Part shown: positions 4,064-59,254 of the stretch, piece by piece
Layout: every line of letters starts with the position of its first letter
How positions within the stretch are numbered: position 1 is the first letter of the stretch
Source: Gautieria morchelliformis
Taxonomy: Eukaryota > Basidiomycota > Agaricomycetes > Gomphales > Gomphaceae
Reading direction: 5' to 3'
NCBI GenBank assembly: GCA_015179125.1
Contig: WHVA01000380.1
Location: 49,974-113,973, forward strand
Length of the DNA stretch: 64,000 nt
Program-made: the position numbers and the translations under genes
Notes under the pieces: generated by a model
What the model was told of the DNA's origin: nothing
The model's input: only the letters and a program-made list of their open reading frames with translations
The model's database searches: none

Positions 4064-5152
4064 CGCCTTGGAGCTCTAGGTAGTGATCTAGAGCTTCCAG
4101 GTCCTTGCACGCTGACATGGGCTCCCATGTCACGTCGCCCAGGGTCCATCGGACCTGAAGTTCCTGTCAGGGGACACCCTGTTTTCCATTTCCAGTTCCG
4201 ACTCCATTTCCGACTCCGCTTCCGGTTCCGATTCCATCTCCACCTCTGCTTTCGGAAATGATTCCGCTTCTGGGAGAACTTCCACCAGTTCTGTTCGCTT
4301 TTCCAGTTCCACTCCAATTTCTGACTTCCGCTCTCGGAACAGTGTCGGAGATCAGGCGACTCGCATAATAGGTGGCATCAAGGGTCGATCAAGGGTCAGG
4401 GAGGTCAGGGGGATGCAGGGTTGATGGCGAGTGCCAAGTGCTGTCCCTGGCTGCACAGCGTAGTATAATACGGGCTCGCTGACATTGGGGGTCCTTAGAC
4501 TTTTCTCTTTGGATTTCCCCTTGTCAGGTGAGAATCCCCTCTCTTGTATACTCTGTTGTTCATTTATACATACTTTGGATTTCCCCTTGTCAGTTGTGTG
4601 GTAGTGTGATCTCCACAACCAGCCAGGGTTGCCCTTACAGTTCCAGGTCCTTGGAATGTATCCATCTATGGGATAAAATTTCGTCGACGAGCCATTCCTC
4701 TTCGTCGTTCATGCCAAAGTCGTAGAACAACTTCACTTCTCGACAGGGGAATAAGTCGTCATTGTTGGCCTCGTACCATCATACGAGGCTGGTGTGGAAG
4801 ATGGGCATGACACACCTGTTCTTCAATTCATCTGGTAGCTCAAGGGTTACCGTCGAGGCCTCGTTGTGGGCCTCGATCACGCAATACGGTCCAATGTATC
4901 GCGGCACCAGTTTCCTGGTCCTTCCTTTGGACAGTGTCAGGTTCTGAGTGGATAGGTATATGCGGTCAGCGACCGCGTACGTGTCACTATCCCGGCGTTT
5001 CTTATTTGCGTGAAATGCCTGCGACACTCGGTGCTCTAGTATGGCGTCGTGCGCCAACATCAGGTTCCAGCGAGCCTGTTGTGCGAACCGGGACACTCCC
5101 TTGAATGGGGTGCCCATTGTCATGGGCATGTCTATCCTCGGCATGTACCCGT
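4064..5152 (-). pseudogene. Gypsy integrase C-terminus and chromodomain fragment
   Basis: The minus-strand frame at 5144-4779 reads as the C-terminal part of a Ty3/gypsy integrase: the region downstream of the catalytic core, with the pattern YVVADRIYLSTQNL-like, then KLVPRYIGPYCVI, then a LPDELKNRCVMPIFHTSLVR-type motif. It continues to 4645 as a chromodomain (EEWLVDEILSHRWI..KDLEL) and resumes after a solo LTR at 4164-4064 (QVRWTLGDVTWEP..LEALDHYLELQGV). RT and the integrase catalytic core are absent; the upstream side is cut by the LTR fragment at 5153. Chromodomains at this position are typical of chromovirus-type gypsy elements and are thought to steer integration to marked chromatin. 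Confidence 0.75.
4165..4639 (-). repeat. Solo LTR inside a chromodomain, TSD GTTCC
   Basis: A 475-bp TG...CA unit is flanked by GTTCC at 4160-4164 and 4640-4644. Read on the minus strand it starts TGTAAGGGCAACCCTGG, similar to the start of the gypsy LTR at 55871 (TGTAAGGACCCGG), and it has a TATAAA motif near 4556. It contains a degenerate TTCCGA/TTCCAT hexamer tract (about 4180-4320). The Glu/Ser-rich ORFs across it are by-products of that repeat. Confidence 0.8.
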
Positions 5153-5419
5153 TGTAGAGGACAGGAATTATAGGCAGTAGGTTTGGACTTGATACTCAAA
5201 AGAAGACTAGAAATCAATTCACTCTCTCAGTGAATTTGGTTGTCACTGTAAATATATTATACACTACCTAGAAATCAATTCACTACAGGATTTCTAGGTT
5301 AACAAATCGAAGAAGAATAAGACTAATTTACTTGCCTCTCTCAGTGAATTTGGTTGTCACTGAGAGAGGGGGGAAATGTGTCTCATGCGCATGTACTACT
5401 TGCCGGCGCTTTAGCGCCC
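5153..5419 (-). repeat. Partial copia LTR, subfamily 1b
   Basis: It starts TGTAGAGGACAGGAATTATAGG, as in the solo LTRs at 40894 and 50586, and carries both hairpin units (5221-5250 region and 5334-5368). It stops at the MITE at 5423. The remaining half of the LTR is not recognisable beyond the MITE, so the LTR is truncated. Confidence 0.85.
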
Positions 5420-5422
5420 GTA

Positions 5423-5821
5423 CACTGGAGGCATATAAAAATTTTCTGGTCTGAAAAACTGTTCAAAAAACTGTAAAGATATTCCAAATTTTTTCAGTGT
5501 TTTTATTGTAAAAAAAAATTACCAAAATTTTGGTTTTTTTTTAGAATTTGTTGAGCAAGAAAATTGTAAAAAGATTTAATGTTTTTGCAGGGTTTTTTAT
5601 GTCTTTTTATAAGTTTCTTGGTGAAAACACAAAGAAACCCATAAAAAAACCCTGAAAAAAACTTTGAATTTTTTTACAATTTTCTTGCTCAACAAATTCT
5701 AATAAAAACACAAAATTTTATTATAGTTTTTTTTATATAAAAAACAGTAAAAATATTTGGAAAATCTTTACAGTTTTTTCAACAGTTTTTCAGACAAGAA
5801 AACTTTTATATGCTTGCAGTG
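5423..5821. mobile_element. 399-bp fold-back MITE, CACTG ends, TSD GTA
   Basis: The left end CACTGGAGGCATATAAAA mirrors the right end TTTTATATGCTTGCAGTG. The first ~58 bases match the inverted last ~58 with few mismatches, and the pairing continues inward (GAATTTGTTGAGCAAGAAAA at ~5545 against TTTTCTTGCTCAACAAATTC at ~5680) almost to a short central loop. GTA flanks both sides (5420-5422, 5822-5824). CACTG termini with a 3-bp duplication fit the CACTA/EnSpm (CMC) superfamily. It is A/T-rich and has no ORF, so it is non-autonomous. Confidence 0.85.
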
Positions 5822-5824
5822 GTA

Positions 5825-6747
5825 GAACGTAGCGCGTTGGTGAACAGCCGCAGCGCAAAAAGGAAACTTGTCCACAACCACCCACAAAGGGTCGGTTGGA
5901 CAGAACATGAAAAGAAGTAGAAATACAGCTTTGAAAAATCATAGAATGAATGTCAGCATGGATTCAAGTCAAAATCAAAAGAAATACGAATGGTGGAATC
6001 TATTTGGCTTTTTTCATACATTTCCCATATTACGAGCAAGCCAGTACCTGACCGTCCTTATTTCGGCGTTGACGTTGGTTCATGAGGCACACCAGGCTTC
6101 TATGCACACTCATACGGCGAACTTGGGCAAGCAAACTAGATTGCGATGCCAGCGCTCTTAGCGCGACCGAGAACCGGGCCGTACTCAAGCCGGCACAAGC
6201 ATAAATACAAGTACAACAAAAGAAGTGGGAAGTGGTAGGGTGGGTGCAAAAAATCGAGAGCTCGAAGCCTTAACGGCTATCAGCGCGATGTAAGTGAGAA
6301 GGACGCGAAGAAAAGGGGAGAGTAAGAAGGGATGTATATATACTATCAGAGACAATAGAACTCCGTGGACAGTGGACTATGCGAGCTAGGACCCACGTGA
6401 CTCGTTGTCATAGACCTGAACAAGGTGTCCCTTGTCCATTGCAGGTCAGTTTCTGCACAATCCGGATGACAAGCTGTCCGTTGAGCTAGCGTTTGTTCCG
6501 TCACAGATCTACTGGAGTCTCTAAAAGACTGTCTCATGCAGCGGACACTACAATGTCAGCTTTTGTTTGGTTTCTAAAGGATTTATATTTTCTAAGCACA
6601 AGACTCGCGCAGCCGAGAGTGGGACGAATCCAAAGAAAAACAGCGATGAAAGATGGTTAACACTTCCGATTTTACTGAGCCGCAACAGACCATTGAAAGA
6701 ATGGTTAAGGCAAAAGCAGTAAAAAAGAAAAGCGAATAAGAATCCCC
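5825..6747. other. Non-coding stretch downstream of U2
   Basis: I see no coding frame I can support. The 97-residue plus-strand ORF at 5868-6161 has no recognisable motif. The 6721-6745 end, read on the minus strand, is a T-rich tract just past the U2 3' stem and may help form the RNA 3' end. Confidence 0.4.
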
Positions 6748-6980
6748 TGACGACACAAGCCGGTACTGCAATAGCAAGGTCATCATGTCCCTCAACGTGC
6801 AAGCAGAGGTCGAGGGACGAGGGCGGCAAAAATTGGCTAACCAATGATGACCGCGGTGCGGTCATTTTAGTGGTTAAACTAAAAAGAACAGATACTACAC
6901 TTGATCTAAGCCTGTACGACGGTTAGCTCTGACTTCTTCGCTTAACTTGTTACGGGTACTCACCAAAAGGCCAGAGTGGT
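6748..6980 (-). ncRNA. U2 spliceosomal snRNA gene with an internal intron
   Basis: On the minus strand, exon 1 (6980-6964, ACCACTCTGGCCTTTTG) and exon 2 (from 6911, GCTTAGATCAAGTG...) join to the conserved U2 5' sequence GGCCTTTTGGCTWAGATCAAG. The branch-point-recognition sequence GTGTAGTATC is at 6900-6891. Stem IIa is TTTTAGT/ACTAAAA (6884-6878, 6871-6865), stem IIb ATGACCGC/GCGGTCAT (6866-6848), the Sm site ATTTTTG (6833-6827), stem III GTCCCTC/GAGGGAC (6818-6812, 6793-6787), and stem-loop IV has the conserved loop TATTGCAGTACC (6773-6762). The spliced RNA would be about 181 nt, normal for U2. U2 pairs with the intron branch site and with U6 in the spliceosome. Exact 5' and 3' ends are inferred. 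All core elements are intact, so the gene is probably functional. Confidence 0.95.
6912..6963 (-). other. 52-nt mRNA-type intron within U2 snRNA
   Basis: The donor is GTGAGT (6963-6958), a branch-like GCTAAC lies at 6927-6922, and the acceptor ACAG ends at 6912, 11 nt after the likely branch A. Removing it restores an uninterrupted, conserved U2 5' region. Length and motifs match protein-gene introns elsewhere in this window (50-67 nt). It falls after U2 position ~17, between the 5' end that forms U2/U6 helix II and the segment that forms helix I. Confidence 0.9.
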
Positions 6981-7009
6981 AAGGAAAATTTGAACGGGGT
7001 CGAGGGCCC

Positions 7010-7015
7010 TATATA
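7010..7015 (-). promoter_or_regulatory. TATA box of the U2 gene
   Basis: TATATA on the minus strand lies about 35 bp upstream of the inferred U2 5' end at 6980, the expected spacing. Confidence 0.6.
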
Positions 7016-8329
7016 CTACAATTAGGCGCCAAGGGACGTGCGCACAGGCCACCAATTGAATTCCCTATATGGTAGCCTGTGCCTTTTTCCGCTATTCAAA
7101 GCAGCAGGTTGCCGAACATGCCGTAACAAAAACAGGGTTTCGGCTGGTATCATCGAAGTATGCTACCCAGGCACTAGGTTCGGCGCAAGCCTTGAAGCTC
7201 CGACTTCATCTCCAGAGGAGTGCTGCGTCGGCCACAACACCTCTCGCGTCAAGGTTTCTTTAGATTATCGTAACAGAGATGTATTCTGACAACTTGTCCT
7301 GTGTGAGTAGCTAAGAATCATTTTAATTATGTCGTGATGTATGTGCCTTCTGGGACGAGTGACAAATGGCTTGTGAGGCACGTAGTTGAAGCAGTCACTC
7401 AAAAATAATTTTAAAAAAATTATCACAATGACCTGTAGTATGTTTTAAAGTGATCTCATAAATTACTTTGCTGCTCGGTGACCGGTGGGCGCAGCACCGG
7501 GCACTTTTCCAGACGACGGTGTCGACAGTTCGTTACGTCACGTGACTTTAAGCACGCTCGCGTTTTAAATGGACATCAACGTATGCTGGGGAGATATCCT
7601 GCTGTTATCATGCAAAGATGTTCTAGAGGACAGGCTTGGGATCATATTCTCTCTCATCAGTCATCTGGGAGTCTCCTATTATTGTTTCTCTTCTCTCCTT
7701 CTTGCCCGAAGGTTTGAAACCGCGCCTGTCAATGACTCAATTTATTCGTACCACTACTATCATAGCGATCGAGCTGTCCCATTTGCTGCTAAAATTATTT
7801 AGGATATCTGGCCTACATTCCCAACTATAGATGTCCTTAAAAATCAGCGAACGGCCGTCTGTAACGCGTTGACAAGTGAGCTAGCACAATTGTGCCCACC
7901 CCCACTATTCCCAATGGGATATAAGACAGTTACTTGGTGATTAAGCATTTCTAACTAGCTAGGGAGCTCAAGAGACATATGGTCTAGTAGATTGTTATAA
8001 TCAGTGAAAGAGTGTGTGGCTGGTGGTAGAGACGGCGGGAGACGGCCCCCTAGCGCGGCATCTTGGTACAAGCCCCTTCTCCGGAAGGTGCTCGCGGAGC
8101 GTGAACTTTGAGTCGGAGATGGGGCTTGTGCCGAACCTACCCAGGCACATTCACTCCAACTCTCAGACGTGACCATGCAACGACAACGAACTCATGGCCC
8201 AACCAGATACAATGCTCCATAGCGATACCAATCATTGAATATCTGTATACGGTATGCCACATAGATCAACCCTGGAGAAACTACCCATCGTTCTACCAGT
8301 GTCATCCCCTAAATCTGAGGCCCGCGCGT
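7016..8329. other. No supported gene; one inverted repeat
   Basis: Short ORFs here (for example 7038-7289, 7569-7802) show no family features. An inverted repeat ACAAGCCCCTTCTCCG (about 8070-8085) against CGGAGATGGGGCTTGT (about 8115-8130) could form a hairpin with a ~29-nt loop. Its role is unknown. Confidence 0.35.
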
Positions 8330-9890
8330 CACGTAGTTCGGCGGGCTCTTCCCAACGAAATTCTTATACACATTTTCAATGAGCTGGACATATGACATAT
8401 GACATTGCTTGCTAGTAATGACTGTCCTACGTCCAAGCTACCTGGAGCTTTCTTATAAGTACTTGACATTTTGCAGACTTGTCGCGTTCTTCATGAAACG
8501 ATCCGAGATGCGTTGATCTTGCAGTATCGCATGGAGCTTGCTGTTGCAGGTGTGTTGAAGATGCATGAATGGATTCTCGGCGTTCAATTCCTGAACGACT
8601 TGCTCAACTCAAAACTATCGAACAAGGCTGGGCCGACCTTCAAGCTTCACTTCCGCCAGAAACACACCCTCCACTGTCCTCAGGGTCACCTATGGGAGCT
8701 TTATGGTGGTGTCCTGGCTCGCGGCATTGAAACATCGATGACGACGCGTGGACTGGCATTCATACGGCTGCCCTCGGCGGCACATGGATCTCCTGTGCAC
8801 ACCTGGGAACATGTGAATATGGGTTAACCATACGGGATTTCGCAATGGACCCTGCACAGTGACCTCGTAGTCCTGACCGCCCAAAGTAAGACTCTCGCAG
8901 TGTGCGTATTATTGATCTCTTAGCTGTGTTTGTTGCCCTATTTCTTATGTAGGCCTGCTGGACGGTTGCGCAGGTATCCGGTCCATTTGCGTGCCATGAG
9001 TAGTGGTGGAAACCATCCTAATGCCTCTGATCCCATTCTATCTTGTATCCCCGTCACCACTCCCTCAATGCTCACCATCCAGGTTATAGGCGACTTCCTC
9101 GCCTTCCTTTTTCGCTCTTTCCTAGGCGATTCCAGTGGCGAGCCTTTTATTTGGAATTGGAAGACTGGCAGACATCTCAAGCCTTCCGTTTTTCGCTGAC
9201 AGTGCTTACTATGTTATAGTCCTTAGAATCCACAGACAACGCCAGTACGAGTTTTCATTTCTCTCACCGAGACATTTTGTAGAGAGGTGCACCCTGGAGC
9301 AGCAACCTCGACTTGATGTGTACGACTTTCTCGTCGTTAGTCTTGAAGGATTGTCAAAACAGCTAATCGTCAGAAGATATCAACTGCCACATGGAGCTCA
9401 AGACGCAGAATTGTTATCTCAGGATCCTGACCCGATCCGATCCGACTCCAGAAACCTCCTCACTTCTCTCGACCACACTTGGCAGTTCTTTTCGCTCTGC
9501 GCCATCTTCCCGTCTATTAGCCTGTCAGCGTGGATTTTCGTATCTGGGAGGTGCCCCGTCAAAGTTATGTGCTCCTCGTACATCACTTCTCACTTCTCGA
9601 AGAAGTGGAGCCCACCTCGATGCTGAACGACATGTTTACGACATGTTTGTCCCCTGGGAAAACTGAGGCCCATAAAAGACCAGAATGATGCATACATTGT
9701 TTAAGATGTATAGGGGAATGTGCTACAGCGCATGTCCAAGTGGGACCCGGTCCAACGCAAAGTCGCAGAGTGATAGGAATGGATATCGCGCGGCCAGTCC
9801 CATTGAGACCCCCCAACTGCTTGTGGGTCCTCAAACTTCGAACGGCTGATGGGATAGGTTCTGTGAAAGGCTGACTGCAAATCAAGCAGA
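8330..9890 (+). pseudogene. F-box protein pseudogene
   Basis: The first exon ends with an F-box start, LPNEILIHIFNELD (8345-8391). A small repeat ATATGACATATGAC at 8389-8403 breaks the frame there. An intron follows (GTAATG at 8415 to CAG at 8476, 62 nt), then an exon with TCRVLHETIRDALILQYRMEL at 8477-8540. Later segments are IRDFAMDPAQ (8829-8858) and DLVVLTAQ, a 67-nt intron (8886-8952), HLRAMSSGGNHPNASDP, WNWKTGRHLKPS, and FADSAYYVIVLRIHRQ in a shifted frame (9196-9245). It decays into VPWEN followed by a stop at 9650-9666. F-box proteins link substrates to SCF ubiquitin ligases and form large families in Agaricomycetes. At least four frameshifts or stops make this a pseudogene. Homology past the F-box is from memory of this family's style, not a search. 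Confidence 0.7.
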
Positions 9891-57695: not shown

Positions 57696-59254
57696 GTGCT
57701 CAGACTCAGTGCCGCTTCTCATTCATTGTCCAAAGATTCTCTTAATGTAGATCTAACCTCACCTTCACTTCCCAACATCTCTTTTGTTGCATTAGTTGAC
57801 TGCGGGTCTTCTGATTGTTTTATTGAATCCAAGTTTGTCCAGAAGTACTCTATGCCTGCTTATCCTGTCTCTCCTATACCCCTGAAAATATTTGACGGTA
57901 GTACTAACACTACCATTACTCAAGCTCTAGACCTCTGTATCAGTTTTCCAACCAGCGAACAACAATGGGTTACCTTCTACATAACCTCGCTTGACTCGAG
58001 TTGCTTGGTGGTGCTTGGCCACAACTGGCTCATCCGCTACAATCCATTGATTGACTGGGTATTGGGCAGTATTACTTTCAAGACCATCAATTTGACTGCG
58101 ACTCCAGTGACCATGGCGACTTCAGCCCGTTCAGCTTCAGCTACAACCCCAACTTCGCCTACGGCATCTTCGCCCCCACCTCCGACCCTGCCTCCGAAGT
58201 TACAAGCACCGCTCGTTTCCCTCATCAATGCACCCACTTTTCTGCGCACATCCAGATTAGAAGGATCTGAAGTGTTTCAGCTTAACCTGGCTTCCCCTGA
58301 GCTCCTCGCCAGAGGAGCAACATCAGGAGAAGGCTCCCCCGAGCTTTCTGAGAACATTAAAAAACATGTTCCCGAAGTATACCACGAATTTGCAGATGTG
58401 TTCGGCAAAGCACGTGCTGACACTCTAGCTCCCCACCGATCCCACAACACCAAGATTAACCTTGAAGAAGGGACCTCGCCACCTACCGGTCCTATCTACT
58501 CCCTCTCCACTTCTGAACTCAAGGCACTCGGTGAGTTCATTGATGAGCATTTGAAAATCGGTTTCATTGGACCTTCACGCTCGCCTCATGGTGCACAGGT
58601 ATTGTTTGTCTGCAAAAAAGATGGCTCGCTTCGGTTGTGTGTCAACTTCCGAGGTTTAAACAAAATTTTGAAAAAAGATCGGTATCCATTGCCATTGATT
58701 GCTGACTTACTCGATGCTCCTAAGAATGCTTGCATCTATACAAAGATTGACCTTGGTCACGCTTACCACCTCGTACGAGTGGCTGAGGGTGACGAATGGA
58801 AAACCTCCTTCAGGACTCACTATGGGTCCTTTGAATGGTTGGTTATGCCATTTGGTCTCACTAACAGCCCTGCTGCCTTCCAGAGATTCATGAACGAGAT
58901 TTTTGCTGACCTCTTGGATGTTTGTGTATACTTGGATGACATTCTAATCTATTCTAGTGACCCCTCCAAACATGTTGAACATGTCAAGGAAGTCCTGTGA
59001 CAACTACGACTCAACAACCTCTTTGCAAAGGAGGACAAGTGCGAGTTTCATCGCAACTCAGCCAAATTCCTTGGCTACATTCTCTCTCCCAAGGGCCTCA
59101 CTATGGCGGACGATAAGGTAAAGGTCATTCAAGACTGGCCTGAACCTCGCAAAGCTCGCGACATCCAATCCTTCCTCGCTAATTTCTACCGACGTTTCAT
59201 TCACAACTACTCTGACATCACCATTCCCTCAACCCAACTTACCCGCAAGGGCAC
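57696..59254 (+). pseudogene. Gypsy element C protease and reverse transcriptase
   Basis: The protease motif is VALVDCGSSDCFIES (57783-57828), where the usual DSG/DTG is DCG. RT follows: HNTKINLEEGTSPPTGPIYSLS (58444), CKKDGSLRLCVNFRGLNKI (58612), MPFGLTNSPAAFQRFMN (58846), and an intact catalytic YLDDILIYSS (58928-58957). A single stop at 58998-59000 comes after KEVL, and RT continues in frame with LFAKEDKCEFH and FLGYILSPKGLTM to QLTRKG at 59250. There the element is cut off by an LTR fragment; RNase H and integrase are lost. Confidence 0.9.

Follow-up and report, generated by a model that had tools for sequence, protein, structure and literature searches.

A putative spliceosomal intron at one shared site in the U2 snRNA genes of Gautieria morchelliformis, with a second interrupted snRNA, U4

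How can a U2 snRNA gene supply its product when its conserved 5′ block is interrupted by a short insert bearing the signals of an mRNA-type intron, a sequence whose removal would itself depend on U2? The question is raised by the window analysed here, a 64-kb stretch (64,000 nucleotides) of Gautieria morchelliformis DNA whose minus strand carries one U2 gene. RF00004 is the sole Rfam family reaching its gathering score in the 64 kb, with a match at 6926-6742 on the minus strand (100 bits against a gathering cut-off of 46; E 6e-19). The first bases of the model align within the insert instead of at the true 5′ end. Exon 1 occupies 6964..6980 (ACCACTCTGGCCTTTTG), a putative U2-type intron of 52 nt occupies 6912..6963, and exon 2 occupies 6742..6911, all on the minus strand. 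The insert opens with the donor GTGAGT (6963-6958), contains the branch box CTAAC (6926-6922), whose likely branch A at 6923 lies 11 nt before the acceptor end, and closes with the CAG of ACAG (6914-6912). It divides the 5′ block into GGCCTTTTG and GCTTAGATC, and the exons, when joined, read GGCCTTTTGGCTTAGATCAAG. Re-reading of the coordinates, together with the 100-bit match, bears out the earlier note, which had described a 5′ block split by a 52-nt insert with GTGAGT, a branch-like GCTAAC and ACAG.

The downstream parts of the gene, which had been taken to be intact, are indeed present, and the RF00004 score is above its cut-off. Exon 2 starts at 6911 with GCTTAGATCAAGTGTAGTAT and runs from the GCT of the helix Ib strand to an approximate 3′ end, corresponding to the RF00004 match; it contains the branch recognition sequence GTAGTA (6898-6893, minus strand), the Sm site AATTTTTG (6834-6827, minus strand) and stems IIa, IIb, III and IV, the stems being tallied in 14 of the 20 paralogues described below. 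No tandem repeats occur at positions 5000-9000 of the window. Elsewhere in the window, open frames at 25186-47069 and 57696-59000 hold retrotransposon domains, some Ty1/copia-like (RVT_2) and others Ty3/gypsy-like (RVT_1, RNase H, integrase), such domains being matched in 8 of the 10 window frames scanned.

Sequence evidence assigns exon 1 to U2: 16 of the 18 genomic copies that have it carry it unchanged, and in copy L013 its CCACTCTGG shows a 9-bp complementarity to the last 42 nt of the genome's own U6, where helix II forms; a match of this length was reached by 25 of 20000 exon 1 shuffles. The same segment in the window's gene could form helix II with the 3′ tail of U6. The GCU of U2 pairs with the AGC triad of U6 in helix Ib, and exon 2 opens with GCU followed by UAGAUC; since exon 2 begins with this GCU, the 3′ splice site coincides with the border of the helix Ib strand. 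In the U2 precursor, the strands of helix II (exon 1) and helix Ib (exon 2) lie on either side of the intron. The earlier placement of the insert between the U6-pairing strands of helices II and I agrees with both the 9-bp match and the GCU of exon 2, GCU and GAUC of U2 being parts of U2-U6 helix I according to PMC6679479.

Upstream of exon 1, on the minus strand, the window's gene has a TATA-like box, GTATAT (7011..7016), 36 nt away, and a snRNA promoter-like element, GGCCTGTGCG (7041..7050), at -70. In 13 of 18 copies exon 1 is preceded both by a TATA-like box (-35 to -38) and, farther upstream, by GGYCYGTGCR (-64 to -74); the upstream element is missing from L024, L028, L030, L031 and L032, the last of which retains its TATA-like box. 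The spacing of the TATA-like box fits a start at exon 1, not at the insert.

The gene in the window is not a lone gene. In the own-genome assembly (122 Mb in 1113 contigs), RF00004 gave 20 matches, one of them the window's copy, and a core pattern allowing up to 3 mismatches led to the same 20 places. This search for further copies, which the earlier note had put forward as a check, thus finds 20 U2 places, 18 of them interrupted, with the insert at exactly one shared site in all 18; the remaining two, L025 and L026, lack exon 1. Searching the joined junction across the assembly with up to 3 mismatches revealed no intronless U2 among the U2 places: the single site returned, C113, has 3 mismatches and lies outside the 20 core places, and the reversed control pattern also returned one. 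As no joined junction occurs at any of the 20 places, the intronless U2 that could have overturned the original reading is absent from the assembly at this threshold; given the 1113 contigs, such a gene could still lie in unassembled sequence. The same search found no processed (spliced) U2 retrocopy in the assembly, which would have been proof of splicing. The two copies without exon 1 are 99.7% alike over 1010 bases; both retain exon 2 preceded by the 3′ portion of the intron, and where exon 1 and the 5′ portion of the insert would be they have other sequence.

Stems IIa to IV are well maintained, 98.1% of 517 pair cells being paired in 14 of the 20 copies. Six copies are outside this count: L014, which duplicates L013; L025 and L026, which lack exon 1; L030 and L031, each with an 11-nt deletion; and L032, the most diverged intron-bearing copy, whose inclusion could lower the pairing count. 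Across the same 14 copies, both partners have changed in 3 of the 37 pairs, a number that 2 of 500 shuffles also reached; the tally of additional pair types did not rise above the shuffles (208 of 500), and a control slid by +2 likewise has 3 pairs with both partners changed. The joined RNA folds better than its shuffles (z -2.9, 2 of 200 as good), a result with little bearing on the 5′ part. These comparisons lend modest support to the view that the U2 paralogues are functional. Part of the family may nonetheless be dead, since 5 of 18 copies lack the upstream element and 2 of 20 lack exon 1.

The inserts carry the signals of a spliceosomal intron throughout the family. All 18 start with GT and have G at +5 (GTGAGT in 7, GTACGT in 6, GTACGC in 4, GTATGT in 1), all 18 end with CAG, and all 18 contain a YTNAC box (CTAAC in 15; CTGAC, TTGAC and CTTAC in 1 each). 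The branch A lies 8-17 nt before the acceptor end, which in 18 of 18 copies falls within the fungal branch-to-acceptor range of 6-36 nt quoted in PMC5832005. Insert lengths are 44-56 nt. Between donor and branch, the interiors of five group representatives are 50% identical, against 47% when shuffled; the splice signals thus outlast the rest of the insert, which is the pattern expected of a spliced intron.

To compare these features with the host's own introns, a homologue-guided set of 9 introns in Prp8 of the same genome was used, each backed by all four homologues employed; the set accounts for 9 of the 12 gaps that separate 13 chained matches. Seven of the nine are 50-55 nt long, with donors including GTGAGT, GTACGT and GTAAGT, and the other two, of 104 and 109 nt, are probably mis-resolved. 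U2 insert lengths and donors fall in the range of these Prp8 introns; the acceptors of Prp8 show more variety than those of U2, all of which are CAG. Two other gene models were dropped for intron counting, an automatic one that stopped early (630 aa) and a relaxed one that over-called (28 introns). The spliceosomal reading of the insert given in the earlier note gains support from its position, signals, length class and conservation across 18 paralogues. A minor (U12-type) intron was set aside because donor and branch box are of ordinary U2 type, unlike the U12 consensus; U12 snRNA (RF00007) had no match in the genome, nor in any control genome. Compared with 184 kb of other sequence rather than with the genome, the introns gave matches of 12-14 nt only, apart from those of U4 introns to U4 loci; on this comparison a mobile-element origin of the introns is neither shown nor excluded.

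A second snRNA of this genome is also interrupted. RF00015 identified at least 11 U4 places, 9 above the family cut-off and two, L062 and L063, below it. The best-scoring of them, L038 (72.4 bits, TATA-like box at -35), is intronless and reads CATCTCTTGTGCTCGGGCATG. In L040, L041 and L042 the block is split between CATCTCTTGTG and CTCGGGCATG by inserts of 54, 59 and 60 nt of the form GTTCGT...CTGAC...CACAG, and removal of the insert restores the block of L038. L039 is interrupted too and is one base short at the donor edge, and L063 has a 56-nt insert together with lesions in exon 2. In L043, L044 and L061 exon 1 is missing its end and the insert its 3′ part; exon 1 is gone from L062, and L045 has a foreign 5′ end. 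Damage thus affects 7 of the 10 copies other than L038, in contrast to U2, and the U4 donor GTTCGT is weaker than the U2 donors. The paralogues with and without the intron define a clean junction of the same type as in U2. The CUUGUGC of joined U4 is a candidate 7-base complementary match to U6, corresponding to the strand of U4/U6 stem II, and the split falls inside it. The sequence GGTCCGTGCA lies upstream in 7 of the 11 U4 places. We know of no U4 intron described so far, and none was met in the open-licence literature searched, with queries that did not name U4; as far as could be checked, the U4 intron is new. The presence of U4 paralogues with and without the intron in one genome offers a natural before-and-after pair.

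The other spliceosomal RNAs that were found are uninterrupted. At least two U6 genes have full model length, about 10 extra bases near the 3′ end and no intron-sized insert, and at least two U5 genes are matched from the first to the last model position, likewise with no intron-sized insert. U1 was not found in the genome by RF00003 at two thresholds or by an exact 5′ 12-mer, whose 11 exact sites looked by eye like repeats or unrelated sequence; the relaxed threshold amounts to noise, since at that setting RF00003 also gave weak hits in 9 of 14 prokaryote controls. In this genome U1 may have diverged, may carry an interruption at its 5′ end or may lie in unassembled sequence. The snoRNA U3 gave no match in the genome by RF01846. 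Two U6 and two U5 genes (L034-L037) share an upstream block at -61/-62, which is CGACAGGCTCAACCAAA in two of them and matches it at 16 and 14 of 17 positions in the other two. The U2 genes and many U4 genes have a different element, GGYCYGTGCR, which suggests two promoter classes. The usual division of snRNA promoters is between Pol II and Pol III; the two classes seen here do not follow that division.

Outside this genome, a collection of bacterial and archaeal genomes yielded four U2 stretches (L009-L012), read as eukaryotic contaminants. The site is uninterrupted in the three that cover it: L009 and L012 have an unbroken GGCCTTTTGGCTAAGATCAAG, and L010, which starts 12 bases before GATCAAG, is also unbroken; L011, truncated or partial at the insert site, was not used. 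A search of viral contigs for U2 of relatives gave 0 matches. As to the host, the six best protein matches of the Prp8 query all come from Agaricomycetes and show 83-84% identity over 1547 aa, a figure that understates the identity because the query includes over-called intron sequence. In a tree of a 721-aa part of Prp8 it falls inside Agaricomycetes (100/99), the nearest sampled lineage being Sphaerobolus at 90/91, below the tool's star.

Could the interrupted copies be pseudogenes, with a working intronless U2 missing from the assembly? The fragmentation of the assembly into 1113 contigs leaves room for such a gene, and the absence of the upstream element from five copies (one of which keeps its TATA-like box) and of exon 1 from two would suit decaying sequences. 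None of the 20 copies is intronless, however, and the splice signals are retained in 18 of 18. Moreover, among all pairs of the 18 copies, mean identity is 94% over the first 150 bases of exon 2, against 64% in the insert and 58% in the 100 bases upstream of exon 1. We therefore regard a family consisting of pseudogenes as very improbable. Retention of the insert, or transcription starting within it, would give U2 a different 5′ end and make exon 1 a relic; the covariance model can run through the insert, its 5′ matches are poor, and L025 and L026 have exon 2 without exon 1. The same exon 1 is nevertheless exact in nearly all copies that have it, matches the tail of the genome's own U6 and lies where the TATA-like box is spaced for it, whereas the interior of the insert is unconserved between groups, so that this alternative has scarcely any standing.

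A further possibility, compatible with splicing as such, is that inserts were gained independently at one hot-spot site in different U2 paralogues. The differing donor types and the interiors of the five group representatives, barely above shuffled likeness, would accord with separate gains, as would the U4 intron, which makes gain a recurrent event in this genome. The groups nevertheless have one exact site and similar lengths, and saturation of neutral sequence after one gain would give an equal pattern; upstream sequences of the 18 copies have likewise diverged, to the 58% given above. On balance, repeated gain at one site seems unlikely.

The reading we prefer, at a probability of roughly 0.9, is that the U2 family genes, where complete, encode a two-exon precursor with an ordinary spliceosomal intron, spliced by spliceosomes that contain U2. 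In pre-U2, a short U2-type intron would stand between exon 1, with its helix II strand, and exon 2, which opens with the helix Ib GCU, and existing spliceosomes with mature U2 would recognise the GTGAGT, CTAAC and CAG of this intron. Removal of the intron would join the two halves into a predicted mature 5′ end of ACCACTCTGG followed by GCTTAG, and only the joined RNA could form the full pairing of the U2-U6 catalytic core. The genes themselves have the two-part anatomy, the insert at the same site and maintained splice signals, and the assembly contains no intronless copy; the splicing of the transcript, its mode of transcription, the self-dependence and a single gain of the intron before expansion of the family are what these observations suggest. 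As mature U2 would be needed to process pre-U2, every cell would have to inherit working U2 in order to make more. The earlier view that U2 is needed to splice its own precursor is thereby supported at the genome level, with no intronless U2 at up to 3 mismatches.

Our certainty falls from splicing to self-dependence in the cell and, further, to entry of the intron by reverse splicing, an idea raised in the earlier note that stays a hypothesis. We consider it possible, although somewhat doubtful, that the U2 supply of this lineage is obligately self-dependent, all U2 genes being cut at the helix Ib edge, that U4 genes have started to acquire interruptions within their U6-pairing strand, and that introns go on entering snRNA genes at points touching U6, as expected of occasional reverse splicing of excised introns into the snRNAs of working spliceosomes and copying back into DNA. 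If true, a U2 family without an intronless member would make the spliceosome dependent on its own product for a core RNA, a closed loop that is open to a dosage-feedback test. The U2 insertion at the 5′ edge of helix Ib and the U4 case would also bear on the proposal of reverse splicing near the catalytic centre.

Among known systems, the closest is the U2 snRNA gene of the basidiomycete yeast Rhodotorula hasegawae, in which Takahashi et al. reportedly described an mRNA-type intron in 1993. That case too reportedly involves a short mRNA-type intron in a basidiomycete U2, near a U6-pairing segment; its intron is said to lie just downstream of the branch-site recognition sequence, so that the site differs from that in Gautieria, which is upstream, between the strands of helices II and Ib. 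In Gautieria, moreover, the interruption affects all U2 genes that possess exon 1 (18 of 20), in an Agaricomycete. Such a host, outside the yeasts in which these introns are known, indicates that mRNA-type introns in snRNA genes are more widely spread, one of the two options, beside independent gain, that the earlier note had named.

In Schizosaccharomyces pombe, the U6 gene has an mRNA-type intron beside catalytic nucleotides, for which reverse splicing near them has been proposed as the origin, according to PMC10484740 (citing Tani and Ohshima 1989, 1991). There it is U6 that is interrupted, whereas in Gautieria at least two U6 copies are intronless and U2 and U4 are interrupted. Fungal U3 snoRNA introns resemble those described here in being GT-AG introns near the 5′ end with similar branch boxes (RCTRAC), and in the coexistence of intron-bearing and intronless paralogues; according to Canzler et al. 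2017 (PMC5832005), frequent interruption was known among small structured RNAs for U3 and U6 alone. Since U3 acts outside the spliceosome, its introns entail no self-dependence, unlike what is proposed for U2. Introns of mRNA type in snRNA genes are thus a known kind, and, as far as could be checked, the insertion site and the whole-family fixation in U2 are new.
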